A stretch of DNA of 64,000 bases from Deinococcales bacterium (GTDB lineage Bacteria > Deinococcota > Deinococci > Deinococcales > JAAFIG01): contig JAAFIG010000008.1 in NCBI GenBank assembly GCA_013298595.1, forward strand, positions 62,001 to 126,000, read 5' to 3'. Under the pieces are notes generated by a model. That model was not told the origin of the DNA. It did no database searches and saw nothing but the letters and a program-made list of their open reading frames with translations. Every line of letters starts with the position of its first letter. Position 1 is the stretch's first letter. The position numbers and the translations under genes are program-made. This document shows positions 1 through 64,000 of the stretch, piece by piece.

Positions 1-321
1 CAGTAAAAAAGGTTGCTCGAGAAATTGTTTTGAAGTATCAAATGCCAGCACTTTTGGTACTGGTAAGCCATAGCGCCTTAGTAATTGTAATACGGCGTTC
101 TCGGCGTACATGAGGTGTTTTTCGTAAGTCATGTTGGATTGTTCTTGTGGTGAGGTTTTCAGCACCAGTTTTTGACCATGCTCGAGCGTGACTGCATAAA
201 CCGAGGCAAAATAACCACCCTCGAGTACCTCGAGTTTTTGCAGGGCAGAGCCGCAGTGAGCTGCAACAATTGCTTGTGCGAGTTCAAGGCTTAAAGTATT
301 TTTTCCAAGGCTATCTGGCAT
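1..321 (-). CDS. APH-family phosphotransferase, N-terminal part (cut by window edge)
   Basis: Read on the minus strand, 321 to 1 is open for 107 codons and runs off the window. The protein begins MPDSLGKNTLSLELAQ. It then shows the N-lobe of the aminoglycoside phosphotransferase / fructosamine kinase fold: a glycine-containing loop (GGYFASVYAV), a beta-strand lysine region (GQKLVLKTSP), a helix with an acidic residue (YAENAVLQLL), and the typical RRYGLPVPKVLAFD segment leading to the hinge. The catalytic loop lies outside the window, so the substrate cannot be judged. The ATG at 321 has no clear Shine-Dalgarno sequence and the frame stays open upstream to a stop near 386, so the start is uncertain. 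It is divergent from the gene at 411. Confidence 0.7.
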   Translation of the reverse strand, partial: MPDSLGKNTLSLELAQAIVAAHCGSALQKLEVLEGGYFASVYAVTLEHGQKLVLKTSPQEQSNMTYEKHLMYAENAVLQLLRRYGLPVPKVLAFDTSKQFLEQPFLL

Positions 322-397
322 GGGTGCAGCATAGCTTTTTGAAGTTTGTGTGAACAGTTGTATGACTTTCTTTTCAATTCCTTCACACTAAAAGCAG

Positions 398-410
398 TAC
401 AATAGGCAAC
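398..410 (+). promoter_or_regulatory. Leaderless promoter -10 (TACAAT, 7 nt to ATG)
   Basis: TACAAT at 398-403 is followed by AGGCAAC and then the ATG at 411. There is no ribosome-binding site, so transcription would start at or next to the start codon. Confidence 0.6.
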
Positions 411-899
411 ATGAAACCTCTTGCATTCTTTGCCGCCGCCTGTACCTTACTTGGTGCTGGTTTTATCTTGGGTCGAGGAACAGCGCCAAATACAGTATCT
501 GAAACTCGAGCTACCCCTGTTTTCTCGTTGCAGTTGGCGCAAAACACAGCTCCTAAACCAGCGCCGCAAGCCCCCAACGACCCTCGAGAGTTAATTCCGC
601 TGAACCCCAATGGACAACAAGGTCAAGGGCAGGGGCAACAACCGCAACCTGGTCAGGGGCAAGCACCACAAGATTGTCCTGTGCAGATTTATCAAGATGG
701 GCAGTTGTATACATTTCCACGTCCTGGGCAACAACCTGGTCAGGGCAATGGTCAGGGGCAACAACCCGGTCAAGGTGGTGGTCAAGAATTGTTCCCATTA
801 AACCCAAATGCACCAACCACACCCAATTCACCAGGTGTTCCCTCGAGTCCGCGTTTACCAACACCAACCAATCCAAGTACACCAACACCGCGTAGTTAA
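411..899 (+). CDS. Exported Gln/Gly/Pro-rich low-complexity protein
   Basis: This 162-residue protein of unknown function starts with a short positive stretch and a hydrophobic segment (residues about 4-22, LAFFAAACTLLGAGFILG) that acts as a signal peptide or membrane anchor. The rest is low complexity: G/Q/P repeats of the GQGQQP type at about 68-85 and 105-125. Two related segments, ELIPLNPN near residue 60 and ELFPLNPN near residue 127, suggest an internal duplication. The tail is rich in Thr, Pro, Asn and Ser. One cysteine (PQDCPV) sits between the repeat blocks. It probably lies outside the cytoplasmic membrane as a disordered or wall-spanning chain. It precedes the MoxR-VWA cluster by 45 bp, so joint expression is possible but not shown. 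Confidence 0.7.
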   Translation: MKPLAFFAAACTLLGAGFILGRGTAPNTVSETRATPVFSLQLAQNTAPKPAPQAPNDPRELIPLNPNGQQGQGQGQQPQPGQGQAPQDCPVQIYQDGQLYTFPRPGQQPGQGNGQGQQPGQGGGQELFPLNPNAPTTPNSPGVPSSPRLPTPTNPSTPTPRS

Positions 900-944
900 T
901 TCGTTCACAGAGCATTCATTGCTTTATCGCAGACTGAGGTCATC

Positions 945-2000
945 ATGAATACACCGTTAAATCCACAAGAAGTTCTCGAGGCAAGTGCAAAATTGCGAAC
1001 CCTTTTGTTTGAAGTCAAACGCGTCATTGTTGGGCAAGATGTGATGCTCGAGCGTTTACTCGTGGCTTTAATTGCACGTGGGCATATTTTAATCGAAGGT
1101 GTGCCTGGTTTGGCGAAAACTCTGGCTATTAAAAGTACGGCAGACGCGATTGGTGCGTCCTTTAAGCGGGTGCAATTCACCCCTGATCTTGTGCCAGCCG
1201 ATTTGATTGGTACGCGGATTTATAATCAAAAAGAAGCTAAATTTGATACCGAACTCGGTCCGATTTTTGCGAATTTAATTTTAGCCGACGAAATTAATCG
1301 TGCACCAGCCAAAATTCAAAGTGCTTTGCTCGAGGGTATGCAGGAACGCCAAGTGACGATTGGGCAAGAAACGTTTAAGTTACCGAATCCATTTTTGGTG
1401 TTGGCAACACAAAACCCCATTGAATCTGAGGGAACATACTTTTTGCCAGAAGCTCAAGTGGATCGGTTTATGTTTAAAGTGGTGATTTCTTATCCTGGTT
1501 TCCATGAAGAAATGACTGTGGTTGATCGGGTCAGCACCAAATTCGCACCACTCGAGAAAAAATTGTCGCTTGAGGAACTGATTCATTTGCAAGAAATGGC
1601 AGATCAAGTTTACGTGCACCCAAGTGTCACCGAGTACGCTGTGCGTTTAGCCCGAGCTACCCGTGAACCTTCTGAGGCAAAATTACCCGATTTGAAGAAA
1701 TTTATTTCTGTTGGAGCCAGCCCTCGAGCCAGTGTCAATCTGATTTTAGGGGCTAAAGCTTTAGCTATTGTGCGTGGGCGCGAGTATGCCTTGCCCGAGG
1801 ATGTGCGTGATTTGGCATTTGATGTGCTGCGTCACCGTATGATTCCAAGTTACGATGCACTGGCAGATGGTGTTAGCACTGAATCTATTATTTCGCAGAT
1901 TGTGCAAAATATTTCCTTACCTCGAGTTCACCTTGGCGATCCGTACAAAGCCGTGGATGCCGTGCCAACGTCAATGAACAACATTGATGTCAACCTGTAA
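945..2000 (+). CDS. MoxR-family AAA+ ATPase
   Basis: The protein has 351 residues, normal for MoxR. Walker A is GVPGLAKT (about residues 48-55), Walker B is LADEINRAP (about 104-112), and the sensor-1 region reads LATQNPIESEGTY. MoxR ATPases act as chaperone-like factors that mature or activate von Willebrand factor A (VWA) proteins. The next three genes (DUF58, VWA, VWA) are their usual partners, so this is the standard MoxR-DUF58-VWA arrangement. A GAGGT ribosome-binding site lies 4 nt before the ATG. The DUF58 gene begins 26 bp after the stop, consistent with an operon. The cellular target is unknown; links to envelope stress or surface assembly are known for relatives but cannot be read from this sequence. 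Confidence 0.93.
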   Translation: MNTPLNPQEVLEASAKLRTLLFEVKRVIVGQDVMLERLLVALIARGHILIEGVPGLAKTLAIKSTADAIGASFKRVQFTPDLVPADLIGTRIYNQKEAKFDTELGPIFANLILADEINRAPAKIQSALLEGMQERQVTIGQETFKLPNPFLVLATQNPIESEGTYFLPEAQVDRFMFKVVISYPGFHEEMTVVDRVSTKFAPLEKKLSLEELIHLQEMADQVYVHPSVTEYAVRLARATREPSEAKLPDLKKFISVGASPRASVNLILGAKALAIVRGREYALPEDVRDLAFDVLRHRMIPSYDALADGVSTESIISQIVQNISLPRVHLGDPYKAVDAVPTSMNNIDVNL

Positions 2001-2026
2001 GTTTTAGATTGCAAAAGGAATTATCT

Positions 2027-3019
2027 GTGACCATTGCCGTTCCTGAAAAACCCGCAAGAACCTCGTTTTGGCGACGTAGCCCAAAACAGCAACCTGTCGT
2101 GCCACCAGTACCGACCAGCACCAAACCATTATCGGCTCGAGCCTTGCCAGAGCAATTGTTACGCCAACTCGAGTTTACGGTTTTAAAGCGTTTGGATGGA
2201 TTTTTCTTTGGCGATTATAGCGGTGTTTTTTATGGACCTAGTTTAGACCTTGCTGAAGTGCGCCCATACCAACCAGGTGATGAAGTCCGCCGCATAGACT
2301 GGAATGTAACCGCCCGTAGTGGCGAATTACATGTCCGCCAGTATCTCGAGGAGCGCGAAATTACGGCTTGGATTATTGTTGATGCCAATGCGAGTATGCA
2401 CTTTGGTACACGGCGTTGCACTAAATATCAATTAGCCCTTGAGTTTGCTGCGCTGGCTGCCAGAATTTGTACTCGGCATGGCGATAAAGTGGGTGCCTTA
2501 GCTGTTGGTGCTAATGGTGTCAAACTGATTCCAGCGGGCAGCGGTAGACAGCAAGCCCTACGAATTGTGGACGAGTTACTCAAACTCGAGTCGCAAGTTG
2601 CACCCGCCAGCACCCACCTTGGTGATGCCCTTGAACAAGTAACACGAACCTTACGCAGACGAGGCTTGGTTTTTGTGATATCCGATTTTCTCGAGCCACC
2701 TATTCATTGGGAGAAAAACCTCTCGAGGCTTTCGTTAAAACACGATTTAATTTGTGCCCGAACCATTGACCCTGTTGAACGCGAATTGCCCAAAGTGGGC
2801 GGAGCACGTTTCCATAATTCTGGTACGGGTTTAGAAACGTGGGTGGATACGTCCGATAAATCGGTGCAAACAGCCCATCAAGCAATGGTGCTCGAGCGCG
2901 AACAACGTATTGCGAAATCTTTTCGCCGAGCAGCAGTAGATCATCTCGAGTTAATTACCGCTAAGGATATTCTCGATCCATTGCTGAAATTTGCAATTCG
3001 TAGAAAAGGACGGCGTTAA
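2027..3019 (+). CDS. DUF58 domain protein, MoxR partner
   Basis: This is a DUF58 protein of about 330 residues. The family signature is clear: YQPGDEVRRIDWNVTARSGE near residue 85, then RQYLEERE. These precede a degenerate VWA-like fold with DANASMHFGT in place of a full metal site. I place the start at the GTG at 2027 because AAGGA (2015-2019) sits 7 nt before it. A TTG at 2009 is also in frame but would lie upstream of the ribosome-binding site. The basic proline-rich N-terminus (PARTSFWRRSPKQQP) is not part of the fold. DUF58 proteins accompany MoxR ATPases and VWA proteins. The stop overlaps the ribosome-binding region of the next gene. Confidence 0.88.
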   Translation: MTIAVPEKPARTSFWRRSPKQQPVVPPVPTSTKPLSARALPEQLLRQLEFTVLKRLDGFFFGDYSGVFYGPSLDLAEVRPYQPGDEVRRIDWNVTARSGELHVRQYLEEREITAWIIVDANASMHFGTRRCTKYQLALEFAALAARICTRHGDKVGALAVGANGVKLIPAGSGRQQALRIVDELLKLESQVAPASTHLGDALEQVTRTLRRRGLVFVISDFLEPPIHWEKNLSRLSLKHDLICARTIDPVERELPKVGGARFHNSGTGLETWVDTSDKSVQTAHQAMVLEREQRIAKSFRRAAVDHLELITAKDILDPLLKFAIRRKGRR

Positions 3020-3020
3020 T

Positions 3021-4034
3021 ATGTCATTTGCTGCTCCTGAATTTTTACTTTTATTGTTGTTGGTGCCGCTGGCTTGGTGGGGCTTAACTCGGCTCGAGTC
3101 ACGGCGAAAAAACACAGCTTTAGCCTATGCCGATGCTAATTTACTGGGTAAAACCATTCGTTATGCCCCTAAAGCCCATGCAAATATCCCTCGAGTTTTA
3201 CAGTTGCTAGCTTTGGCTTTTTTATTCTTCACAGCTTCACGCCCTAGTGCCACGCTTTCTTTGCCACAAAACAAAGCTGCTGTGATGATTGCCATGGATA
3301 CCAGCCGTTCGATGTTAGCCACCGATGTAGAACCCAATCGGCTCGAGGTCGCAAAAGGTGTGGTTAAAGATTTTGTTAAACTTGCACCACAAGATACCCG
3401 AATTGGGTTAGTAACATTCTCCGAAAGTGCTGCTGCTGTTGTTCCAGTCACAACAGACCGAGCACAATTACTCGAGCGACTTGGCAAAGTCAAAGTATCT
3501 AATACCACTAGTCTTGCCGACCCGATTGTGGCAGGTGTCAAATCCTTACCTGGACGTGCCAGTGCCGAAGTGCCTAAAGGCTTACCTGGTGCTTTACGCG
3601 ATGGTCAAAAAAATCCAACAGCTAAACCCATAGATATTGACACTTTACCTCCAGGGGCAATTTTATTACTTTCCGATGGTGTCGGCAATGCAGGTGCAGA
3701 TGTGCGTTTAGCTGCCCAATTTGCTAAGAAATATAAAGTCAAAATTTATACTGTAGCCATTGGTAAACAAGGTGGTGCTGTTTCAAAAATAGATGGTCAG
3801 GATTACTTTATTCCATTTAACGCCGAATCCTTAAAGCAATTAGCCCAACTTGGTGATGGCGTGGCTGTGACTCCTGACAAAGCCGAGTTAACCAAAATTT
3901 TTCAAGAACTAGGTACAGCTATTCGGTTTGAAGCTACTAAACTCGAGTTAAGCGCCATTTTATCGGGTATTGCTCTGTTGTTATTGATGATTGCTGCTGT
4001 TCAGAATTTGCTTTGGCATCGGAGATTAGCATGA
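3021..4034 (+). CDS. Membrane-anchored VWA-domain protein (BatA-like)
   Basis: The 337-residue protein starts at the ATG at 3021, 1 nt after the DUF58 stop, with AAAGGA upstream. Two N-terminal hydrophobic segments (EFLLLLLLVPLAWWGL and LQLLALAFLFF) anchor it. The VWA domain follows, with a metal-ion-dependent adhesion site DTSRSM (DxSxS form) near residue 90, the conserved threonine loop (NTTSLADP) and LLSDGVGNAG. A final hydrophobic helix near the C-terminus (LSAILSGIALLLLMIAAV) returns to the membrane. This is the BatA-like layout, with the metal-binding domain facing the periplasmic side. It probably works with the neighbouring MoxR and second VWA protein; the ligand is unknown. Confidence 0.88.
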   Translation: MSFAAPEFLLLLLLVPLAWWGLTRLESRRKNTALAYADANLLGKTIRYAPKAHANIPRVLQLLALAFLFFTASRPSATLSLPQNKAAVMIAMDTSRSMLATDVEPNRLEVAKGVVKDFVKLAPQDTRIGLVTFSESAAAVVPVTTDRAQLLERLGKVKVSNTTSLADPIVAGVKSLPGRASAEVPKGLPGALRDGQKNPTAKPIDIDTLPPGAILLLSDGVGNAGADVRLAAQFAKKYKVKIYTVAIGKQGGAVSKIDGQDYFIPFNAESLKQLAQLGDGVAVTPDKAELTKIFQELGTAIRFEATKLELSAILSGIALLLLMIAAVQNLLWHRRLA

Positions 4035-4087
4035 AGCCACTGCTAGCAGGTGTTGGTATGAAGCAGTTTAAAGGAGTGAAACCGTGA
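4031..4087 (+). CDS. 18-codon ORF coupling two VWA genes
   Basis: The reading frame is 18 codons (MKPLLAGVGMKQFKGVKP). It starts inside an ATGA overlap with the stop of the upstream VWA gene and ends in a GTGA overlap with the GTG start of the downstream VWA gene. Its final codons carry the AAGGAG ribosome-binding site of the next gene. A terminating ribosome could therefore be handed on through this mini-cistron. It may be a coupling leader or the remnant of a lost gene. No homology can be claimed for so short a peptide. Confidence 0.4.
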   Translation: MKPLLAGVGMKQFKGVKP

Positions 4088-5049
4088 GTTTTACATGGAT
4101 TTGGTGGTTACTGGCACTGATCGTTATTCCTATTTTTGCTTGGCTGTACCTGCGTAACCAAGTGCGTCCAGCCGAAAGCGTTGTCTACCATCCAGATGCC
4201 GAATTTCTCGAGCGAATTGCCCAGAAAGGTCGAACTCGTTTCTCGAGAGGACGTGATTTACCAGCCTTGCTGTTTTTGTTAGCATTAGGTTTTTCGGTGG
4301 TGGCATTGGCACGTCCAAATGCGCCTATACCCGTGCCTGACAATAAAACCACAATTATTCTTGCCCTTGATGTTTCTTTATCTATGGATGCCAAAGATAT
4401 TGTGCCAACCCGTTTCCAAGCAGCTCAAGAAGCGGCTCGAGTCTTTATTCGTCAATTGCCAAAAGGCACAAAAATTGGTTTGGTCAGTTTTGCGGGGTAT
4501 GCGGCTGTTAACGTGGCACCAACTACCAATCTTGATGAAGTGCTACAAGCCATAGACGAATTATCTTTAGGGCGCGGAACGGCGATTGGTGCAGGTATTC
4601 GTGAAAGTGTTTCGGCATTACCAGGTCGCAATGCGGATGGACAAACAAAACTCGAGAAAAACCCGCCTCCAGTCGCTGTGGTTTTACTGACTGATGGTCG
4701 TAATAACCGCGAACCAGACCCGCTCGAGATGGCAACCATTGCCAGAGATCAGCAAGTTAAGGTCTACACCGTTGGGCTTGGTACAGAAACAGGTTCGATT
4801 AATCTCGAGAATGGTGGTTTTAGAGTTGGTTTTGATCCTGAAACCTTAAAAGCCATTGCCCAAACCACAGGTGGACAATACTTTGAAGCGCGTAGCGCAG
4901 GACAATTAACGGCTGTTTATAAAAGCCTTGGACGCAGTATTGGTTGGACAACTCGCCTTGGCGAAGTCACGCACTTAGCTGCGGCTTTAGCTGGTCTTTT
5001 ACTTTGTATTTCCTTAGCAACTGGCGAACTCAACCGCCGCGTTGTCTAA
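4084..5049 (+). CDS. Membrane-anchored VWA-domain protein (BatB-like)
   Basis: The 321-residue protein is the second VWA protein of the cluster. Hydrophobic helices occur at residues about 3-22 (FTWIWWLLALIVIPIFAWLY) and 60-75. A VWA domain with the metal site DVSLSMDA (near residue 96) follows, with the threonine loop GRGTAIGAG and LLTDGRNNREP. A C-terminal hydrophobic helix (LAAALAGLLLCISLA) closes it. The GTG start at 4084 has AAGGAG at 4071-4076. It overlaps the 18-codon ORF by 4 nt. It resembles the upstream VWA protein in layout and probably arose by duplication; the pair likely forms a membrane complex activated by the MoxR ATPase. Confidence 0.88.
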   Translation: MSFTWIWWLLALIVIPIFAWLYLRNQVRPAESVVYHPDAEFLERIAQKGRTRFSRGRDLPALLFLLALGFSVVALARPNAPIPVPDNKTTIILALDVSLSMDAKDIVPTRFQAAQEAARVFIRQLPKGTKIGLVSFAGYAAVNVAPTTNLDEVLQAIDELSLGRGTAIGAGIRESVSALPGRNADGQTKLEKNPPPVAVVLLTDGRNNREPDPLEMATIARDQQVKVYTVGLGTETGSINLENGGFRVGFDPETLKAIAQTTGGQYFEARSAGQLTAVYKSLGRSIGWTTRLGEVTHLAAALAGLLLCISLATGELNRRVV

Positions 5050-5121
5050 AGAAATACTCGAGTACTGTTTATTGGTTTGGCGTTTGGTCGCGTCACTTTC
5101 TTGGGAGCAATAGGAGTTCTT

Positions 5122-6054
5122 ATGCAGCAGGATTTGTTTCGCTACGTCGTCGAAGAATTTGCTGAAGATTACCAACACGGAGAAATTTCTCGCCGCGAGT
5201 TTCTGCGCCGCATGGCATTACTTGGCGGTGGTATTGTCGGAGCAACAGCTTTACTCGAGTCTGTGGGTATGGCAGCCATTAGTAACCAAGAATGGCAACA
5301 AGTTTTTGCCAGTATCCCCGAAGCTGAAGTTGTTGCCAAAGCACAACAAGTTGACCCAACAGACCCCAGTATTACCGCTGGGCAAATCAAATACGAGGCT
5401 CGAGGTTTTACCCATTTTGCTTATGTCGCCCAACCAGTGGGCATTGCAAAAGCCCCAGGTGTGTTGGTAATCCACGAAAACCGTGGGTTGCAACCACATA
5501 TCGAAGATGTTGCTCGCCGTGTTGCCAAAGCAGGCTATGTGGCAATTGCGCCAGATTTGGTCAGTAAAAGTGGCGGAACAAAACAATTCTCGGATACTGC
5601 TCAAATTAGTTCGATTTTGGCACAAACCAATGCTGATGAACACGTCGCTAATTTGCTTGAAGCATTAAAAGTCTTAGGTAATACCACAGGCGTTGAAGCA
5701 AAAAGAATTGCAGCGATGGGGTTTTGTTTTGGTGGTGGTTTAACATGGCGACTTTCTACCGAAACACCTGATTTATTAGCAGCTGTACCATTTTACGGAC
5801 CTGCTCCTGATATTGCTAAAGTGCCAAATATCAAAGCGGCAATGCTTGGCATTTATGGTGGCAACGACAGCCGTATCAATGCTGGAATTCCTAATCTCGA
5901 GGCTGCTTTAAAAGCAGTTGGTACAAAATATCAAATCAAAATCTTTGAAGGTGCAAACCATGCTTTCCATAACGACACAGGTGCAAATTATAAAAAAGAT
6001 GCTGCCGAAGAAGCTTGGCGTTTAACACTCGAGTGGTTTAAGAAATACTTGTAG
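5122..6054 (+). CDS. Tat-exported dienelactone hydrolase family protein
   Basis: The 310-residue alpha/beta hydrolase is of the dienelactone hydrolase family. The catalytic triad is visible: Cys202 in GFCFGGG, Asp249 in GGNDSR and His280 in GANHAFHND. The N-terminus carries a twin-arginine export signal, SRREFLRR (residues 23-30), followed by a hydrophobic stretch, so the folded enzyme should be exported. The family hydrolyses dienelactones and related esters; the substrate here is unknown. I use the ATG at 5122 because AGGAG lies 6 nt upstream, although the frame is open from 5077. The gene follows the VWA cluster by 72 bp, and a CTCGAG lies in the gap. Confidence 0.88.
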   Translation: MQQDLFRYVVEEFAEDYQHGEISRREFLRRMALLGGGIVGATALLESVGMAAISNQEWQQVFASIPEAEVVAKAQQVDPTDPSITAGQIKYEARGFTHFAYVAQPVGIAKAPGVLVIHENRGLQPHIEDVARRVAKAGYVAIAPDLVSKSGGTKQFSDTAQISSILAQTNADEHVANLLEALKVLGNTTGVEAKRIAAMGFCFGGGLTWRLSTETPDLLAAVPFYGPAPDIAKVPNIKAAMLGIYGGNDSRINAGIPNLEAALKAVGTKYQIKIFEGANHAFHNDTGANYKKDAAEEAWRLTLEWFKKYL

Positions 6055-6103
6055 AGTTTAACATCTCATCGAAAATAGATTTCGCTCATGACAGAATTTG
6101 CGG

Positions 6104-6115
6104 TAGACTTGGGGT
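6104..6115 (+). promoter_or_regulatory. Leaderless -10 of polA (TAGACT, 6 nt to ATG)
   Basis: TAGACT at 6104-6109 lies 6 nt before the polA ATG. The same TAGACT box precedes bshA, the sugar-binding protein gene and the Phd-nuclease gene at the same distance. It supports the far-upstream start of PolA and hence its N-terminal extension. Confidence 0.6.
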
Positions 6116-8971: not shown

Positions 8972-9028
8972 GTCAGGGTATCTTTAGACCCTGCGCTAAA
9001 ATACAGACCAACTTTCGTATGGTGTTTT

Positions 9029-9042
9029 CGTAAGCGCTTACA
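9029..9042. promoter_or_regulatory. LacI-family/cre-like operator palindrome
   Basis: The 12-bp perfect palindrome GTAAGCGCTTAC at 9030-9041 sits in the gap between polA and the GGDEF gene. The 14-mer CGTAAGCGCTTACA differs at one base from the classic LacI/CcpA-type operator. The central CG and symmetric arms suggest a LacI-family regulator. It lies about 110 bp upstream of the GGDEF gene; no such regulator is encoded in the window. Confidence 0.45.
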
Positions 9043-9153
9043 GCTATATTTAGGGTAACTCCAAGTAGAATAAAAAATCTCAAGCCCTAAATATTGCCAT
9101 AAAAGCGAGTATCATAAAACACACCATTTGAATGAAAGTGAGTCAAGCCAACC

Positions 9154-54834: not shown

Positions 54835-57800
54835 ATGAAACCCATGCCTAGAAAACTCGAGTCATTGCATCGCGCCCATGAACGTAAGCGTTTGCGAGAA
54901 ACCATTCCTAATGCCTTACACGAAGGTGTTGGACGTGATGCTTGCGGTGTGATTGGCACCATTCGTAAAACAGGTTTGCCCAGCCATGGCAATGTCAAAC
55001 GGGCGCTCGAGGCATTAACCCAAATGGCGCATAGAAGTGGTGAAGTACGCGGTGAAGGTGATGGTTGTGGTATTCAAACCGATATCCCGAAGAAACTCTG
55101 GAAAAGTTGGTTGACCGAAGCTGGTATCGAACCGAGTGTAGTAGATGAAACAGGTTTTTTTGTTGCCCATTTGTTTATTCCTGTGAATGTCAACCCTCGA
55201 GATGTGCTTGATCATATTCGGGCAAATACCATGAAATTTGGTACTCGAGTCATTCTTGAACGGCGTGGTCAAACCCATGGCAGTGTGCTTGGTCCAGTGG
55301 CTGCAATTTCTGAACCTGCATTTTATCAAGTGGCTGGTGTGGTGAACGGAGATTCCGAACAAACTCGAGTGGCAGCATTGTTTAGTTTGGCATTAGAACT
55401 CGAGAATGCTTTGCCTGTGCACGTGGTTTCGCTTTCGCAGCATACAGTTGTCTATAAGGTGCGCGGGGCAGCGGATATTCTCGATCGGTATTACCCAGAG
55501 TTGCGCCGTCCAGATTTTGAATCGGTTTGTACCATTGGACATAATCGTTACAGCACCAACACCATGTCCACTTTCGAGCAAGTGCAACCTTTTACCTTAC
55601 TTGGGCATAATGGCGAAATTAACACTATTGAACGTTTGCGTCGTGAACTGGATTTCCTTGGTATCTCGAGAACAGGTGGGTCAGACAGCCAAGACCTCAA
55701 TCGTTTACTCGAGGGTCTGATGTGCCAGCAGGGTTTGAGTTTGTTTGAATCGCTCGAGATGGCATTCCCACCTGTGCTTGGTGAAATTAAAACCTTTAGC
55801 CCAGCCTTGCAAGATGCGTATATGAGCTTTAGGCAGCAGCTTGGACCACTTGCTCAAGGACCAGCAGCTTTAGTCATGCGTTTTGGGCAAGAATGTGCTT
55901 TTAGTGTGGATGCGTTGGGTTTGCGTCCATTGTGGTTTGGTGAAACCGAAAAAGAATTTTTCTGGTCATCGGAACGTGGTGTTGTACCACTCGGTTCTTT
56001 TGTCAACGATCCACGCCCACTGGCTCCTGGTGAGAAAATGCTCTGCACCATCCGCCCTAATGGTGTGCAACCAATGCCGCACTTTGAAGCCCAACGTGTT
56101 CTGCTCGAGCGAGTGCATAACCGCAGTGCAGTCGTGGTTGGTGCCAGAGCACATGTTTCTGGTCCACTTGAGCGCCCTAGTAATGTGCCAGAATTTGACC
56201 CAGAAGTGCATGTGCCAAGCGCAGCAGCTTTAGCCGCTTTTGGTTGGGAAAAATGGGATGAAGAATACGTCAAAGCACTGGCTGAAAAAGGCAACGAACC
56301 AATCTCGAGTCTTGGTTTTGATGGTCCGATAGCGGCTCTGCGCGACCCTAAACCAAACCTCGCAGAATTCCTCAAAGAAACCGTAGCAGTTGTCACTAAC
56401 CCAGCCATAGACCGTGAACGCGAAATCGAACAATTTAGCACTCGAGTTGTACTTGGTAAACGGGCTTTACCCAATGGTAAATACGCTGGGCAAATTTGTG
56501 AACTGATCACCCCCGTTATTCCGCTCGATTCTGAAACAGCCGCTAAACACGGAACGATGACATTACCAGAACTCGAGAGTCACTTAAAAACAGTGCGAAT
56601 AAAACTCGAGTTACAAGTGGCTAATAATTTTCCTGAGCCACTTGAAAAAGCCCTTGATCGTTTACGCGATGAAGTGATTAAAGCTGCACATTCTGGGGCA
56701 GAACTGATTATTCTCGAGGATAGACTTGTTTACCGTTCTGGGCATATGCCACTCGACCCAAGTTTATGTGTTGCTGAAGCCAACAAAGCTTTAGAAAACC
56801 TGAACTCCGATGGCATTGCGTATCGTCGTCAAACCAGTGTAATTGTCTCGAGCGGTTCGATCAGAAATTTGCATGACATCATGATGCTGCTTGGACTTGG
56901 CGCAGATGCTGTTGAACCGTGGTTATTGTTAGCTGCGTTTTCGGGTGCTGATAAGCAATCGGCTGATAAAATTGTATCGGCATTAACCAAAGGTGTTGAA
57001 AAAGTCATGTCCACCATGGGTATCCACGAATTACGCGGCTACGGACGGGTTTTTGCTGCGATTGGTTTAAAACCAGACCTAGCCGATAAACTTGGTATCA
57101 AGAGCTTTTTGGCTTCTGAAACTGCTGGTTACGGTATGGCTGACCTCGAGAAAACCATGCAGGATCGCCGTCATCGGTGGACACTGGGTGGTGCTTCCCT
57201 CGAGCGTGACGCACGTCTCAACACCCGCGTTTATAAACACGCAGCAGCAGCAGCGAATGGCGAAATTGCCGCTACCGATTACACTGGTCGGATTCGAGCA
57301 TTAGAACTCGAGTTTCCTGTGGCTGCCCGAAATTTACTCGAGGTAAAAGGTTTAGCTGGTCCTGCCACCGAAGACGAAATGCGGGCTGCTGAAGAAGTGG
57401 ATATTAGCGCTGGTTCGCATCGTTTACCATTTGTGATTTCTGCTATGAGTTTTGGTTCACAAGGCGAAACAGCCTTCAGAGCTTATCCAGAAGCCGCTAA
57501 ACGCCTTGATATGGTTTCGATGAATGGTGAGGGTGGCGAAATATCGGACATGATCGGGCAATACACCCGTTGGCGCGGACAACAAGTTGCCTCGGGGCGC
57601 TTTGGTGTTTCATCCGAAATGCTGAACAGCTCTGGTTTTATTGAAATTAAAATTGGACAAGGCGCGAAACCAGGCGAAGGTGGGCACTTACCAGGCAGTA
57701 AAGTAACCGCTAAAGTTGCCAAGGCACGCCATGCCACCCAAGGTGTAGATTTGATTAGCCCAAGTAACAACCACGACCTTTACAGCATCGAAGACCTTGC

Positions 57801-59385
57801 CCAATTAATCGAAGAACTCAAAACCATCAACCCATATGCCAAAGTCTGTGTCAAAGTGCCAGTCGTACCAGACATTGGTACAATCGCCGTGGGTATCACC
57901 AAAGCAGGCGCAGACGTGATTACCCTTTCAGGATTTGAAGGTGGAACAGGCGCAGCTCGAGCACATGCGCTCAAGTACGCTGGTTTCCCAGCCGAAATTG
58001 GTTTGCGTCGCACCCACCGCGCCCTTGTTATGGCAGGTATCCGCGACCGTGTTGAACTCTGGGTAGACGGTGGTATGAAAACGGCTCTCGATGTGGTCAA
58101 AATGGTTTGTTTAGGCGCAAACCGCGTTGGTTTCGGCACTATTTCGATGGCGGCTATTGGTTGCACCATCTGCCGAGGCTGCCAACTCGATACTTGTCAC
58201 GTTGGTATTGCCACCCAAGTCGAAACCTTTGAGGAAGCCGAAGAAAAAGGCATGAAGCGCTTCGTCCCACGTGAACTTGACAAAGCAGTCGAAAACCTCA
58301 CCCGTTTCTTTACAGGCATGGCATCCGAACTGCGTGCTATGGTCGCCACACTCGGCTACGAAAGACTCGAGGATATGGTCGGGCAAGTGCAGCACCTCGG
58401 GCATTTTATGGGTAAAGACAAACTTGACCTAAGTTACTTACTCGAGGAAGTCGAACCACTAGCATTACCAAAAACCGAACGAGTCATTCGTAAACCACTC
58501 AACAGCCTCACCCGTATGGTTTCGGGTTGGATGGTAGACGCAGCCGTCAGTGGCGACGAAGTTCTTACTTATCAAGATGGTCCTGTTGCCAGTGCCGACC
58601 GAGCCTTAGGTACACACCTTGCAGGTGAATTATCCAGACGCAAAAACGATAAATCCATGAAACTCGAGAAAGCCAAACTCTACTTTGATGGGGGCAGCAT
58701 TCCAGGTAACGGATTAGCCGCCTTCAACACCGCACAACTCGAGATTCTGGTCGATGGTGGCGCTCAAGATGGTGTTGGCAAAGGCAGTTTTGGTGGCAAA
58801 GTTGTCATTATGAAAGGCTTAAACGACCAAGGTGTACGCGTGGACGGCTCGGTAGGAAAAAGCTTTGGTTACGGCGCAATTGGTGGCAAATTCATCATCC
58901 AAGGCAACGCCGACAGCCGTTTTTGTATCCGACTCAGCGGCGCAGATGTTGTACTTGGTGGCGAAGTCAAAAAACCACTCGAGGATGCCTTAGGTATGTT
59001 GGCAGCTCGAGCCAATGCTAAAGGTTTTGCTTTTGAATACATGACCAACGGACGCGTTGTGGTACTCGGCGACCCAGGACCTTGGATTTGCAGCGGTATG
59101 ACAGGCGGCGTTGTTTACTTACGCTACCAACCAACAATGGGCTTAGACGACACAGCCCACGCCCGCCGCCTTGCTAAAGGAGCCAATGTTAAAGTTCACA
59201 AACTTGGCGAACGTGGCGTTGCAGACATCCGTGAAATGCTTGGCGAATACCACAAAGCCCTTGTCTCGAGCGAACAAACCGATGCTGCCAGACGAGTTGC
59301 AGAATTGCTCGTAGACCCAGCCGCGCATTTCAGAATGGTTGTACCAGCTAACCAACAAGTGGATGCCAGCGTTAGCACCGAGTAA
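54835..59385 (+). CDS. gltB: Glutamate synthase, large (alpha) chain
   Basis: The 1516-residue protein makes glutamate from glutamine and 2-oxoglutarate. A 36-residue propeptide precedes Cys37 (DACGVIGT), which becomes the N-terminal nucleophile of the class-II amidotransferase (about 37-430; RHNGEINT-type HNGEINTIERLRRE). Next are a central domain, the FMN barrel (GEGGEISDM, GQGAKPGEGGHLPGSKV) and the 3Fe-4S cysteines CTICRGCQLDTC. The GXGXG beta-helix (about 1270-1500; GSFGGKVVIMKG, GYGAIGGKFIIQGNADSRFCIRLSG) ends it. No gltD small subunit is nearby, so ferredoxin could be the donor. The ATG at 54835, not the open frame at 54781, is set by the promoter. Confidence 0.95.
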   Translation: MKPMPRKLESLHRAHERKRLRETIPNALHEGVGRDACGVIGTIRKTGLPSHGNVKRALEALTQMAHRSGEVRGEGDGCGIQTDIPKKLWKSWLTEAGIEPSVVDETGFFVAHLFIPVNVNPRDVLDHIRANTMKFGTRVILERRGQTHGSVLGPVAAISEPAFYQVAGVVNGDSEQTRVAALFSLALELENALPVHVVSLSQHTVVYKVRGAADILDRYYPELRRPDFESVCTIGHNRYSTNTMSTFEQVQPFTLLGHNGEINTIERLRRELDFLGISRTGGSDSQDLNRLLEGLMCQQGLSLFESLEMAFPPVLGEIKTFSPALQDAYMSFRQQLGPLAQGPAALVMRFGQECAFSVDALGLRPLWFGETEKEFFWSSERGVVPLGSFVNDPRPLAPGEKMLCTIRPNGVQPMPHFEAQRVLLERVHNRSAVVVGARAHVSGPLERPSNVPEFDPEVHVPSAAALAAFGWEKWDEEYVKALAEKGNEPISSLGFDGPIAALRDPKPNLAEFLKETVAVVTNPAIDREREIEQFSTRVVLGKRALPNGKYAGQICELITPVIPLDSETAAKHGTMTLPELESHLKTVRIKLELQVANNFPEPLEKALDRLRDEVIKAAHSGAELIILEDRLVYRSGHMPLDPSLCVAEANKALENLNSDGIAYRRQTSVIVSSGSIRNLHDIMMLLGLGADAVEPWLLLAAFSGADKQSADKIVSALTKGVEKVMSTMGIHELRGYGRVFAAIGLKPDLADKLGIKSFLASETAGYGMADLEKTMQDRRHRWTLGGASLERDARLNTRVYKHAAAAANGEIAATDYTGRIRALELEFPVAARNLLEVKGLAGPATEDEMRAAEEVDISAGSHRLPFVISAMSFGSQGETAFRAYPEAAKRLDMVSMNGEGGEISDMIGQYTRWRGQQVASGRFGVSSEMLNSSGFIEIKIGQGAKPGEGGHLPGSKVTAKVAKARHATQGVDLISPSNNHDLYSIEDLAQLIEELKTINPYAKVCVKVPVVPDIGTIAVGITKAGADVITLSGFEGGTGAARAHALKYAGFPAEIGLRRTHRALVMAGIRDRVELWVDGGMKTALDVVKMVCLGANRVGFGTISMAAIGCTICRGCQLDTCHVGIATQVETFEEAEEKGMKRFVPRELDKAVENLTRFFTGMASELRAMVATLGYERLEDMVGQVQHLGHFMGKDKLDLSYLLEEVEPLALPKTERVIRKPLNSLTRMVSGWMVDAAVSGDEVLTYQDGPVASADRALGTHLAGELSRRKNDKSMKLEKAKLYFDGGSIPGNGLAAFNTAQLEILVDGGAQDGVGKGSFGGKVVIMKGLNDQGVRVDGSVGKSFGYGAIGGKFIIQGNADSRFCIRLSGADVVLGGEVKKPLEDALGMLAARANAKGFAFEYMTNGRVVVLGDPGPWICSGMTGGVVYLRYQPTMGLDDTAHARRLAKGANVKVHKLGERGVADIREMLGEYHKALVSSEQTDAARRVAELLVDPAAHFRMVVPANQQVDASVSTE

Positions 59386-59400
59386 AAACTACACTCTCGA

Positions 59401-59433
59401 GAAACGCGGATGGCTTTTAGCTGTCCGCGTTTC
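59401..59433 (+). terminator. Hairpin after gltB, likely terminator
   Basis: The 10-bp stem GAAACGCGGA / TCCGCGTTTC with a 13-nt loop begins 15 nt after the gltB stop. The T-tract is short (TTAGTT), so termination may be partial. Confidence 0.65.
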
Positions 59434-59468
59434 TTAGTTCAAATACAGACAAGCCAAACAAGATGCAC

Positions 59469-59480
59469 TATAATTTGGTC
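59469..59480 (+). promoter_or_regulatory. Leaderless -10 (TATAAT, 6 nt to ATG)
   Basis: A perfect TATAAT at 59469-59474 lies 6 nt before the ATG at 59481. An in-frame ATG at 59463 would sit upstream of the -10 box and is therefore not the start. Confidence 0.7.
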
Positions 59481-59717
59481 ATGCCAACCATTGAACTTTC
59501 TTCAGATAATTTAAGTCGTCTTGAAGCAATTCGTAAAGCTCAAGGCATCAGCCAAGAAGCTGCGCTCGAGTTAGCCCTTGAAGCAGCTCAATACGCACAT
59601 TTGGATGAGGCTACCCGAAGTGCAATTCTCAATGCGCCTATTTTAACCAAAGAGTTTTTACGCCAAGATACCGATCCAAGTGCGCCACCTTATGAGGAAT
59701 CGGAGCATAAAGCGTGA
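59481..59717 (+). CDS. VapB-like antitoxin, partner of a decayed toxin
   Basis: The 78-residue protein begins MPTIELSSDNLSRLEAIRKAQ and continues GISQEAALELALEAAQYAHL, like the ribbon-helix-helix/antitoxin type in which a strand is followed by two helices. The C-terminal tail (FLRQDTDPSAPPYEESE) is acidic and flexible, as in toxin-binding regions. The stop overlaps the GTG of a PIN-toxin remnant (GTGA), the usual vapBC arrangement. With the toxin broken, it may be an orphan or may be on its way to loss. Start set by the leaderless TATAAT box. Confidence 0.68.
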   Translation: MPTIELSSDNLSRLEAIRKAQGISQEAALELALEAAQYAHLDEATRSAILNAPILTKEFLRQDTDPSAPPYEESEHKA

Positions 59718-59809
59718 CACCTCAATCCGTTGTATTGGATACCAATGTCATCAGCATAAAATGCCAACTGAAGCTGAGCAAAAAGCCGAACTCGAGTGAG
59801 AACTACTGA
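59714..59809 (+). pseudogene. Decayed VapC (PIN-domain) toxin
   Basis: GTG at 59714 opens with TPQSVVLDTNVIS, the exact PIN-domain start (LDTN with the catalytic Asp), but the frame ends after 31 residues. From 59761 another frame reads MPTEAEQKAELE then a stop, and after it ELLSG then a stop; this looks like a later piece of the same toxin. An internal deletion with frameshift explains it. The antitoxin gene immediately upstream is intact. Confidence 0.7.
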
Positions 59810-59931
59810 GCGGTTAAATTTTTGGCTGTGTTATAAACAAGCCAAAAAGGATGAGATTATCGTATAATTAATCTGAAAATAGCTACAATACTGTAATACT
59901 GTGGTTCATTTCTTTATATAATTGGAGAAGA

Positions 59932-61155
59932 ATGATAAACTGTCCGAATTGTGATTCTAGTATAAATGACGATACACTCAACTTTTGTCCAAGTTGTGAA
60001 AGACAAGTTAGGTGTTTGAATAAAGAATGTAGAGCTATGCTAAAGCCAAACAACTCAATTTGTTTGACTTGTGGTGAAACGGTAAAAAATAGAGGGGATT
60101 CTGCTACTTTCAACACATTAACTATTGATACAACGCAAGACGGGAATTCTTTTTCGCAAAAAATTGCTGTGAAAGCCACTGATGCCTCTGTTGGGCATAT
60201 GTCAGGTATTGCAATGCAATTAATAAACGTGAATAAGGGTACTGGTACTATTCAACGACAAATAAATGCGCCTATTGGAAACCGTTCTGGTTTGCCAGCG
60301 AACACTGTCGAAGCTCAAGTAAAAAATTCTAACGACAATCAAGTAAGACAAATACATGAAGATATTGAAGCCCAAAATCAAGAACGAGTTCAAATTGATG
60401 ATACAGTTTTGATGGACGCAGTCGAAGAATTTTTTCGATTAGACGAAACAAACAACTTAGTGTTGTTGGATGCCTTCAGAAAAAGAGATTTTGGCGACGG
60501 GAAAAAAACTAAGAGTGGAAAAGCTACTAACATAGTTTTATTTTATATTTTTGCCTGTGAGCATTTTAGGATTACTGCACCTACTCGAGAGCAAATATTT
60601 AACATGCTGGAAAAAGAAAAATTATTAAATTCTAATTCAAGATTCTTTTTTGATAAAACTATAGTTTCCGAATATCTGAGTAAAGAGCAAAATGGTTATA
60701 AACTGCATTACGCAGGAAAAGAAAAATTACTTTTAATACTCAGTGAAATTTATAACCCAACTCCGCATAGCAGCATAAAAAGAGTGAACAAGTCTAAGTC
60801 ATCTCGAAAAAATACCTCAACAGCAAAAATAAATCCGACAATACAGTCTTGGATAGAAAAAACCATAGATATAGACAAACTGGGAACATCAGCAATAAAG
60901 AGTGTTTCAGATTGGGCTTTATTTGTAGTTTATTTGCTTACAAAACATCTGAACTTAGTTGAAACTATTAAGCCTGGTGATGCCTATGTATATATAACAA
61001 CTCTTAAAACAGCTACATCTTTAGATAGAAAACAATTCAGAGATTCAATCAGCAGAAATAAGAAATTATTCGATAAGAACGCAAAGGGTGAATACTTTCT
61101 TACACAAGCAGGGATTGAGAAAGCAAAAACCGATTTTTTTGAGGCATCATTGTGA
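59932..61155 (+). CDS. Double zinc-ribbon protein, first gene of an unrecognised operon
   Basis: The protein has 407 residues. Two zinc ribbons open it: Cys4, Cys7, Cys19, Cys22 and Cys28, Cys33, Cys44, Cys47. A region of about 100 residues (60-165) is low in hydrophobics and probably flexible. Two related segments follow: about 185-275 (IVLFYIFACEHFRI, ending GYKLHYAGKEKLLLIL) and about 325-405 (ALFVVYLLTKHLNLV, ending GEYFLTQAGIEKAK); both look like winged-helix units. No known family is claimed. GGAGAAG precedes the ATG, and TATAAT lies at 59863-59868. The stop overlaps the next start (GTGA). CTCGAG occurs once; the gene is AT-rich. Confidence 0.7.
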   Translation: MINCPNCDSSINDDTLNFCPSCERQVRCLNKECRAMLKPNNSICLTCGETVKNRGDSATFNTLTIDTTQDGNSFSQKIAVKATDASVGHMSGIAMQLINVNKGTGTIQRQINAPIGNRSGLPANTVEAQVKNSNDNQVRQIHEDIEAQNQERVQIDDTVLMDAVEEFFRLDETNNLVLLDAFRKRDFGDGKKTKSGKATNIVLFYIFACEHFRITAPTREQIFNMLEKEKLLNSNSRFFFDKTIVSEYLSKEQNGYKLHYAGKEKLLLILSEIYNPTPHSSIKRVNKSKSSRKNTSTAKINPTIQSWIEKTIDIDKLGTSAIKSVSDWALFVVYLLTKHLNLVETIKPGDAYVYITTLKTATSLDRKQFRDSISRNKKLFDKNAKGEYFLTQAGIEKAKTDFFEASL

Positions 61156-61928
61156 GCTTTTCTGAAGCAATACTCCTTAATTCCTTAAAAGCTCATATTC
61201 CACAAAGTATTTGTATTGAATTAATCAAGGAGTATAAACAAATTAAAAGCCAATTTTTTCTTAGAAAATGGCGACCCGCAGAATTGAGTGGTGGACGGTT
61301 TTGCGAATGTGTGCTCAGGGCTATTGAGCATTTAGATACTGGGTCTTTTACCCCTTTTGGCGTTTCGTTGAAATCAGATGTTATTATCCGAAGCGTTGAG
61401 ACTAATGTTTCGCTCTCAGATTCAATACGGTTCATTATTCCTCGTCTTGTGCGTGTTATTTTGGATTTTCGTAATAAACGAGATGTTGCACATACTGGAG
61501 GAGAAGTTTCACCAAATCAATTGGATTCGATCTTGATTTCGCATACATCAGATTGGATATTGGCGGAATTAGTTAGAAAGTTCTATCTTGTTGACTTGGT
61601 TGAAGCCAAAAAATTGATTGATTCTATTATTGAAATTAAGATTCCAATAATAGATGACATAAATGGTTTTCCAAAAATCCTTAATACGAAACTTGATGCA
61701 ACTGAAAAGACACTACTGCTTTTGTATTATAAAAGCCCTGATACAGTACTAGATACTGATTTATTCAATTGGGTTGCATACTCTAATATTGGAAACTATA
61801 GAACTCGAATCCTAAATGTTTTAGATGATAAAGCATTACTTCATAGAGCAAATCTCAAAAGCTCAATTACAAGTAAAGGTGTTTTGTTTGTCGAAACAAA
61901 AATACATATTCAGGAAATTATTTTATAA
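61152..61928 (+). CDS. HEPN-like protein with RNxxxxxH motif, second gene of the operon
   Basis: The 258-residue protein is one whose family I do not recognise. The helical N-terminal part (about 1-165) has ELSGGRFCECVLRAIEHL and then DFRNKRDVAHTGG, where Arg107-Asn108 and His114 form an R-N-x5-H motif as in HEPN ribonucleases. The C-terminal part (about 180-255) reads like a winged helix: ATEKTLLLLYYKSPDTVLDTDLFNWV, then LNVLDDKALLHR and a beta wing. Translation is coupled to the zinc-ribbon gene (GTGA overlap). The setting between two wrecked toxin-antitoxin loci and the lack of CTCGAG suggest a mobile defence or toxin system (inference). Confidence 0.68.
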   Translation: MSFSEAILLNSLKAHIPQSICIELIKEYKQIKSQFFLRKWRPAELSGGRFCECVLRAIEHLDTGSFTPFGVSLKSDVIIRSVETNVSLSDSIRFIIPRLVRVILDFRNKRDVAHTGGEVSPNQLDSILISHTSDWILAELVRKFYLVDLVEAKKLIDSIIEIKIPIIDDINGFPKILNTKLDATEKTLLLLYYKSPDTVLDTDLFNWVAYSNIGNYRTRILNVLDDKALLHRANLKSSITSKGVLFVETKIHIQEIIL

Positions 61929-62339
61929 GCTAAGATAGTGTCACAAAACCTGCTCAGGACAGTTTATTGTATTGACACTACTGTGAATGATACAGTGTAC
62001 TTTGGTCAACCTGTCGTAATTCGAGTTTTTCAAGTCTTAAATTGTTTATTTTGGTTTTTGTAAAATCTAAAGTGTATTGCCACAATTTACTTTCTCGAGT
62101 TTTGTACTATACTTTTAACCATGTCTCCGACCTTGCAATTGGATGCTGAACTCAAGGCTTGAGTACGTTTTTTGGCTGCCCAACAAGGTGTCATTTGTAT
62201 CTTCTTTCCAAGCCTCGAGACAGTTGTGAAAATCGAGATTTGCTGGTTTTTTATTTTTGGCAATTGTCTAAGAATTGACATTGCTGCTTGGCAGCTCAAT
62301 AAGCTTGCAGGTGATTTGCTACTTATGGAACAATAATGC
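61929..62339. other. Gap with a broken antitoxin gene
   Basis: There is no intact gene. A leaderless promoter-like TATACT (62108-62113) lies 7 nt before an ATG at 62121 that starts the broken antitoxin described separately. CTCGAG occurs near 62095 and 62213. The rest shows no feature I can support. Confidence 0.5.
62121..62190 (+). pseudogene. Broken antitoxin gene (in-frame stop)
   Basis: From the ATG at 62121 the frame reads MSPTLQLDAELKA, stop, VRFLAAQQG. This matches the start of a ribbon-helix-helix antitoxin with a TGA (62160-62162) where an Arg codon CGA would be expected. Homology fades after the QQG. TATACT lies 7 nt upstream of the ATG, as in functional genes here. A single C-to-T change would explain the stop. 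Confidence 0.55.
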
Positions 62340-63509
62340 GTGAATTCATCACCTTTGCTTGCTGATCTAGCTCCGACGCGTTCTCTGATTCTTGCTCGTT
62401 GGGCTGTGGCAGCCGTTTTTTTCCTCAACGGTTTTGCAATTGCTAATTGGGTGGTACGAATTCCTGCGGTCAGTCAGAAGCTCAATTTATCGCCTGGTGC
62501 TTTGGGTTTGGTGCTGCTGGCTTCGGCTGTTGGGGCTTTAATCAGTATGCCGATTGTTGGGCGTTTATGTGTTCGGTTGGGTTCTAAGCAAACAACTTTG
62601 CTGTTTAGTGTCGGTTTTGCACTAACCACCATGCTACTGACTTTAGCGCCTAGTGTATTGGTACTGGTGTTGGTGTTGTTTTTCTGGGGTGCTTTGAATG
62701 CTGGTTTGGATGTGGCTATGAACACTCAAGGCACCACGGTTGAACGTGGTTTTCAGCGTCCTGTCCTCTCGAGCTTTCACGCTTTTTGGAGTGTGGGTAG
62801 TTTGTTTGGCGCAGCGGTTGGTGGGGTGTTTGCTCGTTTTGCGGTTGCTCCGAGTTTGCATTTGATTGTTGTGGGTTGTTTGGTTTTGCTTGGTTTTTTG
62901 TTTGTCTCGAGGTTTTTAATTGCCGATGAGATATCCGATCAATCCGAGAAAACATCGGGTTTGCAGTTATCGGTTGGGTTATTGGTGCTTGGTGCGATTG
63001 CTTTTTGTGCGTTGCTGGGTGAAGGTGCAATTGCCGATTGGGGTGCGTTGTATTTGCAAAATTCGCTGGGTGCCGATGCTGGTTTAGCGGCGGCTGGTTT
63101 TGTGGCGTTTCAGTTGTCTATGGCTTCGCTGCGTTTTGCTGGTGATGCGTTGCGTTTGCGCTTAGGCGATGCTCGAGTAGTGTTGCTTAGTGGTATTGTT
63201 GCTACTTTTGGTTTAGCGTTGGCTGTTGTTCCACAATTTGTTTGGACGACGATTATTGGTTTTGGTTTTGTTGGGGCTGGTTTTGCAATTATTTTTCCAG
63301 CTGCTCTTGGTTTGGTTTCAAAGCTCGAGGCGCGTTCGAGTGGTCCTGCAATTGCTTGGGTTGGTGGCGTGGGTTACGCTGGTTTTTTGGTTGGACCGCC
63401 ACTGATTGGCTTGGTTGCAGAATTTACGACTTTGCGTTTTGGTTTGCTGGTTGTTTTGCTGGCTGGTGTAGCAATTGCGGGTTTATCGAAATTGCTTAAA
63501 ACTGCCTAA
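62340..63509 (+). CDS. MFS transporter
   Basis: The 389-residue protein has about twelve hydrophobic helices. The motif between helices 2 and 3 is present in a variant form (GRLCVRLGSKQTTLL), and FFWGALNAGLDVAMNTQGTTVER plus SFHAFWSVGSLFGAAVGG resemble the fucose/glucose-type MFS permeases and the YbjJ-like group. Substrate unknown. The start is a GTG at 62340; no later start fits before the first helix (LILARWAVAAVFFLNGFAIANW). A stray out-of-frame ATG at 62336 would read only nine codons. The gene is somewhat richer in G and T than its neighbours. Confidence 0.87.
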   Translation: MNSSPLLADLAPTRSLILARWAVAAVFFLNGFAIANWVVRIPAVSQKLNLSPGALGLVLLASAVGALISMPIVGRLCVRLGSKQTTLLFSVGFALTTMLLTLAPSVLVLVLVLFFWGALNAGLDVAMNTQGTTVERGFQRPVLSSFHAFWSVGSLFGAAVGGVFARFAVAPSLHLIVVGCLVLLGFLFVSRFLIADEISDQSEKTSGLQLSVGLLVLGAIAFCALLGEGAIADWGALYLQNSLGADAGLAAAGFVAFQLSMASLRFAGDALRLRLGDARVVLLSGIVATFGLALAVVPQFVWTTIIGFGFVGAGFAIIFPAALGLVSKLEARSSGPAIAWVGGVGYAGFLVGPPLIGLVAEFTTLRFGLLVVLLAGVAIAGLSKLLKTA

Positions 63510-63760
63510 GCAGTCTCGAGTAGCGTTTTTAAGGTTAATGCCAGAATGGTGTTTGTTTTCGAGGTGTTTGTGTACCTAGGGGCAAGGTTTTAGTCTCTCG
63601 AAAGGGGAAGTAATGCTTTGTGTTTCTTGTCTCGAGACATAAACCACTACCTGTTGTATGGGTAACGGCATAAGGAACTGTATCAAGTAGGGTTAATTAG
63701 GTAGCTCGAGTCTTTTGCTATTTGACTGGGCATCGAAAATCTGTGCATAATGTAAAGTAG

Positions 63761-64000
63761 ATGAAGAAGATTTTGTTTGCATTGGCGCTTTTAATTGGTT
63801 TAGTAGGTGCTGCTTTTGGCACAGTGCAATTCTCGCCGACCCCGTGGGCAGATCATGGTTTACGTGTTGACCCTGATTCAAAAATTCGTGGTAATACGTT
63901 GTTTAAAATCGTTAAAGATGGTGTCACCAAGCGCAGTATTTCAGCTTTGGATTTTGAAGCATACTTGGTTGAACTGACTGGGCAGGGCGGCAGCGAATTA
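63761..64000 (+). CDS. Exported protein, N-terminal part (cut by window edge)
   Basis: The frame is open from the ATG at 63761 for 80 codons to the window end. The signal peptide KKILFALALLIGLVGAAFG is clear, and the mature part begins TVQFSPTPWADHGLRVDP. I do not recognise the family from this much. Upstream, TTGACT (63722-63727) and CATAAT (63746-63751) with an 18-bp spacer make a promoter 9 nt before the ATG; TAATGT (63748-63753, 7 nt) is an alternative -10. No ribosome-binding site is seen. The 250 bp before it (63510-63760) hold CTCGAG sites but no gene. Confidence 0.65.
   Translation, partial: MKKILFALALLIGLVGAAFGTVQFSPTPWADHGLRVDPDSKIRGNTLFKIVKDGVTKRSISALDFEAYLVELTGQGGSEL

Follow-up and report, generated by a model that had tools for sequence, protein, structure and literature searches.

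Short words over-represented throughout a genome are known from the DNA uptake sequences of Neisseria and Pasteurellaceae, naturally competent bacteria, which CTCGAG, the word described here, resembles in this respect; they are longer, sparser and more species-specific than CTCGAG. The closest described systems are the highly iterated palindromes (HIPs), the function of which has been a standing question since HIP1 (GCGATCGC) was found in cyanobacteria; in Synechocystis there is one HIP1 per 1131 bp (PMC6604393). The alternate HIPs GGCGCC, rCCGGy and GCsGC (Elhai 2015, PMC4390886) are, like CTCGAG, short palindromes that dominate a genome, but each belongs to a single strain with a candidate methyltransferase, whereas CTCGAG extends through several families. 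The same word is the target of an orphan methyltransferase system in Nocardia (Blow et al. 2016, PMC4752239), where it clusters near the replication origin, in contrast to the genome-wide occurrence described here, for which no corresponding enzyme was found among the five methyltransferase families searched.

By sequence, CTCGAG belongs to the HIP class: it is its own reverse complement, it stands far above Markov expectation and above all other palindromes, and, like HIP1, it is very abundant in both coding and non-coding DNA, extends through a whole lineage, has been lost or replaced in some lineages, and coexists with avoided words. The preliminary description of this DNA, made from its letters, had named HIP1 as the parallel and is borne out in this. 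CTCGAG is not HIP1, because the word is a different one, and the HIP1 core CGATCG has 0 copies in a 395-kb sample from another genus of the family (genome G006) and does not figure in the set of palindromes enriched in the genome that contains the window (G000). It also differs from HIP1 in its phylum, in having 6 bp and not 8, in its lack of a flanking extension, in having no common methyltransferase found among five families, in a measured shift of the proteome and in a 20-bp exclusion zone. CTCGAG is, to judge from these features, an independent HIP case in a phylum other than the cyanobacteria, approximately seven times denser than HIP1. No earlier report of its over-representation was found in the open-licence literature searched, including that on Meiothermus, Deinococcus and XhoI.

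The window is the whole stretch of 64,000 nucleotides of G000 that was analysed; further analyses of G000 used stretches totalling 842 kb, all evidence is from sequence, and genes were taken as open reading frames, not as curated annotation. By its polA, the match of which is given in Table 1, G000 belongs to the Deinococcota. Comparisons drew on the 111 genomes of the order, in which CTCGAG was counted (searches of the class and of the phylum gave the same 111); among them G005 is a congener of G000, and families are labelled f1 to f5. The window contains 264 CTCGAG, where its base composition predicts 10.2 (25.8-fold), at a median spacing of 150 bp, and the runner-up palindrome, TTGCAA, is at 2.9-fold; the preliminary estimates of 250-300 copies, one per 150-165 bp in native genes and an approximately 25-fold excess over one per 6 kb were right. 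The whole genome (4.58 Mb in 68 contigs) contains 27,159 copies, or one per 169 bp. The reversed word GAGCTC has 15 copies genome-wide and is so strongly avoided itself that it is a poor control. When CTCGAG was masked and an order-2 Markov model was then fitted, approximately 70 copies were predicted in the 842 kb of G000 against 4,810 counted (68-fold), 29 against 2,107 in the sample of G005 (72-fold) and 42 against 2,314 in the sample of G006 (55-fold); a naive, unmasked order-2 model of G000 still gives a 14-fold excess. The next palindrome is at most 3.9-fold by composition in the samples of these three genomes, and the remaining top hexamers by order-2 ratio are mostly overlaps of CTCGAG, the rest being at approximately 2-fold. 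The Markov comparison proposed in the preliminary description thus leaves the excess standing, and an equal excess of unrelated hexamers, which it had named as the contrary outcome, is not seen. Symmetrised flanks contain no extended motif around CTCGAG, with mild depletion of C at position -1 only. Avoidance of the restriction-modification type does not describe the word: the depleted palindromes are other ones, and CTCGAG is in excess.

The preliminary description placed the motif over positions 1-64000; this is so for most of the window, but the motif is nearly absent from two cold patches (Table 1), the first of which has a CTCGAG-free gap between 35556 and 41045. The near-lack of CTCGAG in these patches is as expected for recently acquired DNA. 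Since the low-GC glycan island is nearly free of CTCGAG, the motif appears to be gained slowly by resident DNA and not imported.

Table 1. Features of the window, with the sites of CTCGAG that each contains.
Feature	Position	Strand	Remarks
CTCGAG-rich native DNA	1..33300		176 sites, 1 per 189 bp; first at 16, 181, 220, 229, 505
polA	6116..8971	+	79% identical to Deinococcales MAG JAAFJQ010000004.1 (the genome of relative G005)
Cold island with genes of glycan biosynthesis, GC 0.36	33301..45600		14 sites, 1 per 879 bp
CTCGAG-rich native DNA	45601..59800		64 sites, 1 per 222 bp
Second cold patch with two genes of unclear family, GC 0.335	59801..62086		1 site
CTCGAG-rich native DNA	62087..64000		9 sites

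The density of CTCGAG in G000, G005 and G006, respectively, is one per 174, 167 and 174 bp of coding DNA and one per 199, 172 and 142 bp of intergenic DNA. Within genes the word is found in all three codon frames; the Leu-Glu frame takes a little over half of these sites, and the synonymous opportunities for CTCGAG in these genomes are used at 65-76% in the Leu-Glu frame and at 37-64% in the other two. Relative to codon use elsewhere, from which a CTC-GAG share of 1.5, 2.4 and 5.6% of Leu-Glu codon pairs would be expected in three family genomes, the share found is 65, 71 and 76%. The odds favouring the exact word vary with the genome and the control used, between approximately 50- and 190-fold; on a scaled measure this bias amounts to some 4 to 5 log units. 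Four members of the family (G000, G005, G006 and G007) have whole-genome densities of 5.9-6.5 per kb, and the GC of their sampled DNA is 0.448, 0.498, 0.536 and 0.607 (the last from 20 kb only). The figures show that a pressure at the DNA level acts uniformly on one palindrome, inside genes and outside them, and the DNA-level, HIP1-like process of the preliminary description agrees with the equal coding and intergenic density, the use of all frames and the confinement of the excess to one word.

Leu-Glu is the most over-represented dipeptide in proteome samples of the family, with ratios of observed to expected of 2.31 (bootstrap 2.24-2.38), 2.17 and 2.26 in three family genomes; for motif-rich genomes of f2 the ratio is 2.03, for f4 it is 1.46, and for three relatives poor in the motif it is 1.00 (0.88-1.13). 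Pairs of Leu-Glu that are encoded without CTCGAG fall below expectation, and Glu-Leu has a normal frequency. Because only CTCGAG-coded Leu-Glu is in excess, the DNA word accounts for approximately 2,050 extra pairs in 240,000 residues of G000. The DNA pressure is thereby shown to have reshaped the proteome toward Leu-Glu, a case in which pressure on a DNA word changes the amino-acid pairs of a proteome. The preliminary statement that selection or mutation acts on DNA and not on protein therefore holds for the cause but not for the effect. Ser-Ser, which can be encoded in another frame of CTCGAG, is at 1.5-1.6 in the family, an observation that is consistent with the word but not specific to it.

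Among the commoner hexamers, CTCGAG is the best conserved between G000 and G005 (65% versus 21% for other hexamers). An interpretation of the 65% identity as conservation of individual sites was dropped, because at shared Leu-Glu positions it mostly follows from high occupancy in both genomes: of the Leu-Glu positions common to G000 and G005, 155 have CTCGAG in both genomes where independence predicts 141 (odds ratio 4.8, p = 3e-6), and the corresponding values of 50 against 48 with G006 (84 pairs) and 17 against 15 with G007 (32 pairs), both more distant and with small samples, do not differ significantly. So individual sites are lost and gained interchangeably while density is held, and such exchangeability makes position-specific roles, for example in regulating particular genes, unlikely to explain the bulk of the sites. 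Among words that differ from CTCGAG by one base, CTCGAA is in 4.3-fold excess and CTTGAG in 3.8-fold excess in G000 relative to codon controls matched for the next base, and CTAGAG is neutral; pairs containing CTG or TTG are low in G000 whatever their distance from the motif. The transition one-offs of G005 and G006 are also in excess (1.6-2.4), the small classes being noisier. A depletion of transversion one-offs that was apparent at first was dropped after the next-base control. The excess of transition one-offs departs from a simple mutation-selection equilibrium and suggests partial tolerance of these words or non-equilibrium decay.

Close pairs of sites are scarce. In coding DNA, normalised to the positions that the protein permits, 380 pairs would be expected at distances of 7-15 bp and 121 are present (approximately 0.3); pair frequency recovers by approximately 20-25 bp, nearing expectation at 22-24 bp, with a slight deficit to approximately 60 bp, and the deficit of close pairs recurs in other families (25 against 57 expected, p = 2e-6). 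A spacing of exactly 6 bp, which would create the avoided GAGCTC, was left out of these counts, and avoidance of GAGCTC accounts only for that missing spacing. Generic avoidance of inverted repeats was rejected as the cause, GC-rich inverted repeats occurring at 0.8-1.5 times expectation at these spacings. From the distances we infer a protein footprint of approximately 20 bp; palindrome-specific secondary structure, or avoidance of words that arise from close pairs, could also produce the exclusion zone. The sites have no helical phasing at 10.5 bp. A period of 89 kb on one 300-kb contig is weak (p = 0.017) and is not relied on.

Any mechanism is constrained by the bias of 4-5 log units, the 20-bp exclusion, the turnover at held density and the excess of transition near-misses. 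The reading that we prefer, with confidence evenly balanced between acceptance and doubt, is that a single pressure, acting on DNA across the genome through a site-reading protein, holds this HIP close to a set density. The pressure would be of roughly constant strength per CTCGAG site, and its source would be one sequence-specific protein that reads CTCGAG, occupies approximately 20 bp and is partly tolerant of transition variants. The chromosome-wide task of such a reader may be nucleoid organisation, repair or recombination, or DNA uptake, and it would act either by weak selection at each site or by molecular drive favouring CTCGAG-bearing DNA in repair or recombination. Somewhat more tentative is the wider proposal of an order- or family-wide "palindrome drive" in Deinococcota, in which a CTCGAG-reading protein independent of a conserved methyltransferase would rewrite proteomes (approximately half of the Leu-Glu pairs) and density would stay constant as GC drifts.

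The site-reading protein must be weighed against the methylation-linked repair ratchet that Elhai put forward for cyanobacterial HIPs, in which a methyltransferase marks CTCGAG and strand-directed mismatch repair keeps the mutations that create sites. Every cyanobacterial genome with highly over-represented words in Elhai's survey had a putative methyltransferase for them (PMC4390886), and the orphan enzyme of Nocardia is reported to be specific for CTCGAG (PMC4752239). For METHYLTRANSFERASES, the Pfam families PF00145, PF01555, PF07669, PF02384 and PF02086 were sought in 13-14 genomes and the matches were compared. No methyltransferase of these five families is orthologous across G000, G005, G006 and G007, all equally rich in CTCGAG, so that within these families the solitary methyltransferase that was expected drops out as a factor common to the four genomes. 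The m5C enzyme of G000, for which the nearest PADLOC model is an orphan methyltransferase, speaks for the ratchet, but it is shared only with G005, G003 and G097 (4 of the 111 genomes) and is absent from two equally dense relatives, so that the solitary methyltransferase suggested in the preliminary description is not supported as the general cause. At least two other enzymes of G000 have a restriction-enzyme neighbour, two of them adjoining predicted type II restriction enzymes (C11, C34), and another adjoins a GmrSD-like gene where CTCGAG is wholly absent (C66). Proteins of approximately 500 residues with PF02384 in G005, G006, G007 and G096 were considered as a shared CTCGAG methyltransferase and rejected, their sequences by inspection reading as type I HsdM-like. 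Lineage-specific methyltransferases with the same target, or enzymes of families beyond the five, are conceivable. A density seven times that of HIP1, without the kilobase-scale repulsion that the saturation argument predicts, also counts against the ratchet, which we consider unlikely, and the assumed link of HIPs to one methyltransferase is loosened. Very-short-patch repair, in which a Vsr-type enzyme corrects T:G mismatches after deamination of methylated C, would suit the CpG inside CTCGAG, and G001 has Vsr and an m5C gene within approximately 100 bp of each other; however, Vsr (PF03852) has no match in G000, G002, G003, G005, G006 or G007, and CTTGAG, the substrate that it should remove, is in 2- to 6-fold excess, so that this explanation is very improbable.

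A drive in DNA uptake or recombination, by which competent relatives favour CTCGAG-bearing DNA and the word accumulates as uptake sequences do, fits the turnover at held density, the near-miss excess and the foreign islands without the word, and natural competence is known in cultured members of the phylum. Known uptake sequences are, however, species-specific and present at approximately one per kb, whereas CTCGAG has 6 bp, crosses families and occurs once per 170 bp, and a fragment-scale process does not predict the 20-bp exclusion zone; such a drive is accordingly rated a little less probable than the ratchet. A pure mutational or repair bias, that is, a neutral hotspot creating CTCGAG with no reader and no benefit, would explain why the effect is the same in coding and intergenic DNA and why individual sites are replaceable. 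Repair that drained near-misses into CTCGAG should deplete them, but in G000 the transition one-offs are instead too frequent and CTAGAG stands at the level of its control; a point process offers no evident source for the exclusion zone, and the amino-acid shift toward Leu-Glu would need a strong bias. We regard such a hotspot as improbable. The excess of Leu-Glu and the predominance of its frame among genic sites could be taken for a codon-pair or protein-level preference, which is next to negligible, being refuted by the similar intergenic density, the use of the other two frames, the lack of excess in Glu-Leu, the restriction of the Leu-Glu excess to CTCGAG-coded pairs and the normal values in motif-free relatives.

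Across the order, CTCGAG outranks every other palindrome in samples of G001, G002, G003, G007, G022, G024, G033 and G096. By the masked Markov model it is at 12-, 69- and 67-fold in G001, G002 and G003 of f2, at 5- to 11-fold in f4 and at 16-fold in f5 (G096); it is not the top palindrome in G004 (0.4-fold), G110 (0.8-fold) or G044 (3-fold by composition). The motif is, as far as these genomes indicate, one that spans several families of the order and has been lost in some small genomes. With graded strengths across families and losses, a second HIP system makes causes separable, and bench tests are possible if cultivable members of the order carry CTCGAG. Density correlates with genome size across 62 genomes (rho 0.68; 0.73 for genus means), a correlation in which phylogeny and GC are confounded. 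The loss in small genomes of this order parallels the low frequency of HIP1 in symbiotic cyanobacteria according to Elhai (PMC4390886).

In an 842-kb sample of the source genome, several palindromes besides CTCGAG are almost wholly avoided: GGCC occurs at 0.8% of expectation, and GAGCTC, GACGTC, GGCGCC, CCGCGG, TTCGAA, CTTAAG and others stand at 0-3%. The whole window contains only one GGCC, at position 31208. The tetranucleotide is also near-absent from the two equally CTCGAG-rich relatives of the same family (G005 and G006), and is normal in G003, from another family of the order. The scarcity of GGCC, GAGCTC and the other palindromes reads as heavy restriction-site avoidance; the restriction-modification genes of the source genome are listed in the table with the other features discussed here.

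CTCGAG density and genome size are positively correlated over 62 genomes of the order (rho 0.68); the motif has been lost from several genomes with a size near 2 Mb. G001, another member of the family of G003, has a weaker excess of CTCGAG over masked Markov expectation (12x); in G001 a Vsr gene lies about 90 bp downstream of a match to an m5C methyltransferase.

Features of the source genome (G000), of G001 and of the window
Feature	Location	Remarks
Restriction-modification complement, G000	L222 12311-14732, L155 1399-3242, L165, L101	
Type II pair, G000	contig C11	REase match, E 3e-106
Type II pair, G000	contig C34	NotI-like
Methyltransferase adjoining GmrSD, G000	contig C66	CTCGAG absent
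Orphan-like m5C enzyme, G000	contig C15	
Vsr gene, G001	L327 / G001:C11:85043-85231	
Sugar-nucleotide dehydratase-type gene, first	window 32234-33265	likeness to the second by eye
Sugar-nucleotide dehydratase-type gene, second	window 39841-40875	likeness to the first by eye
799-aa protein inside glycan island	window 40928-43327	N-terminal transposase-type helix-turn-helix (HTH_Tnp_1, E 1e-9)
Two neighbouring CTCGAG-poor genes	window 59932-61928	

Within the window, positions 33301-45600 form an island of low GC with few CTCGAG and with genes for glycan biosynthesis; the 799-aa protein encoded there has no Pfam match apart from the helix-turn-helix models. The pair of neighbouring CTCGAG-poor genes, one of which begins with a zinc-ribbon while the other has no match in Pfam, is probably a recent acquisition.
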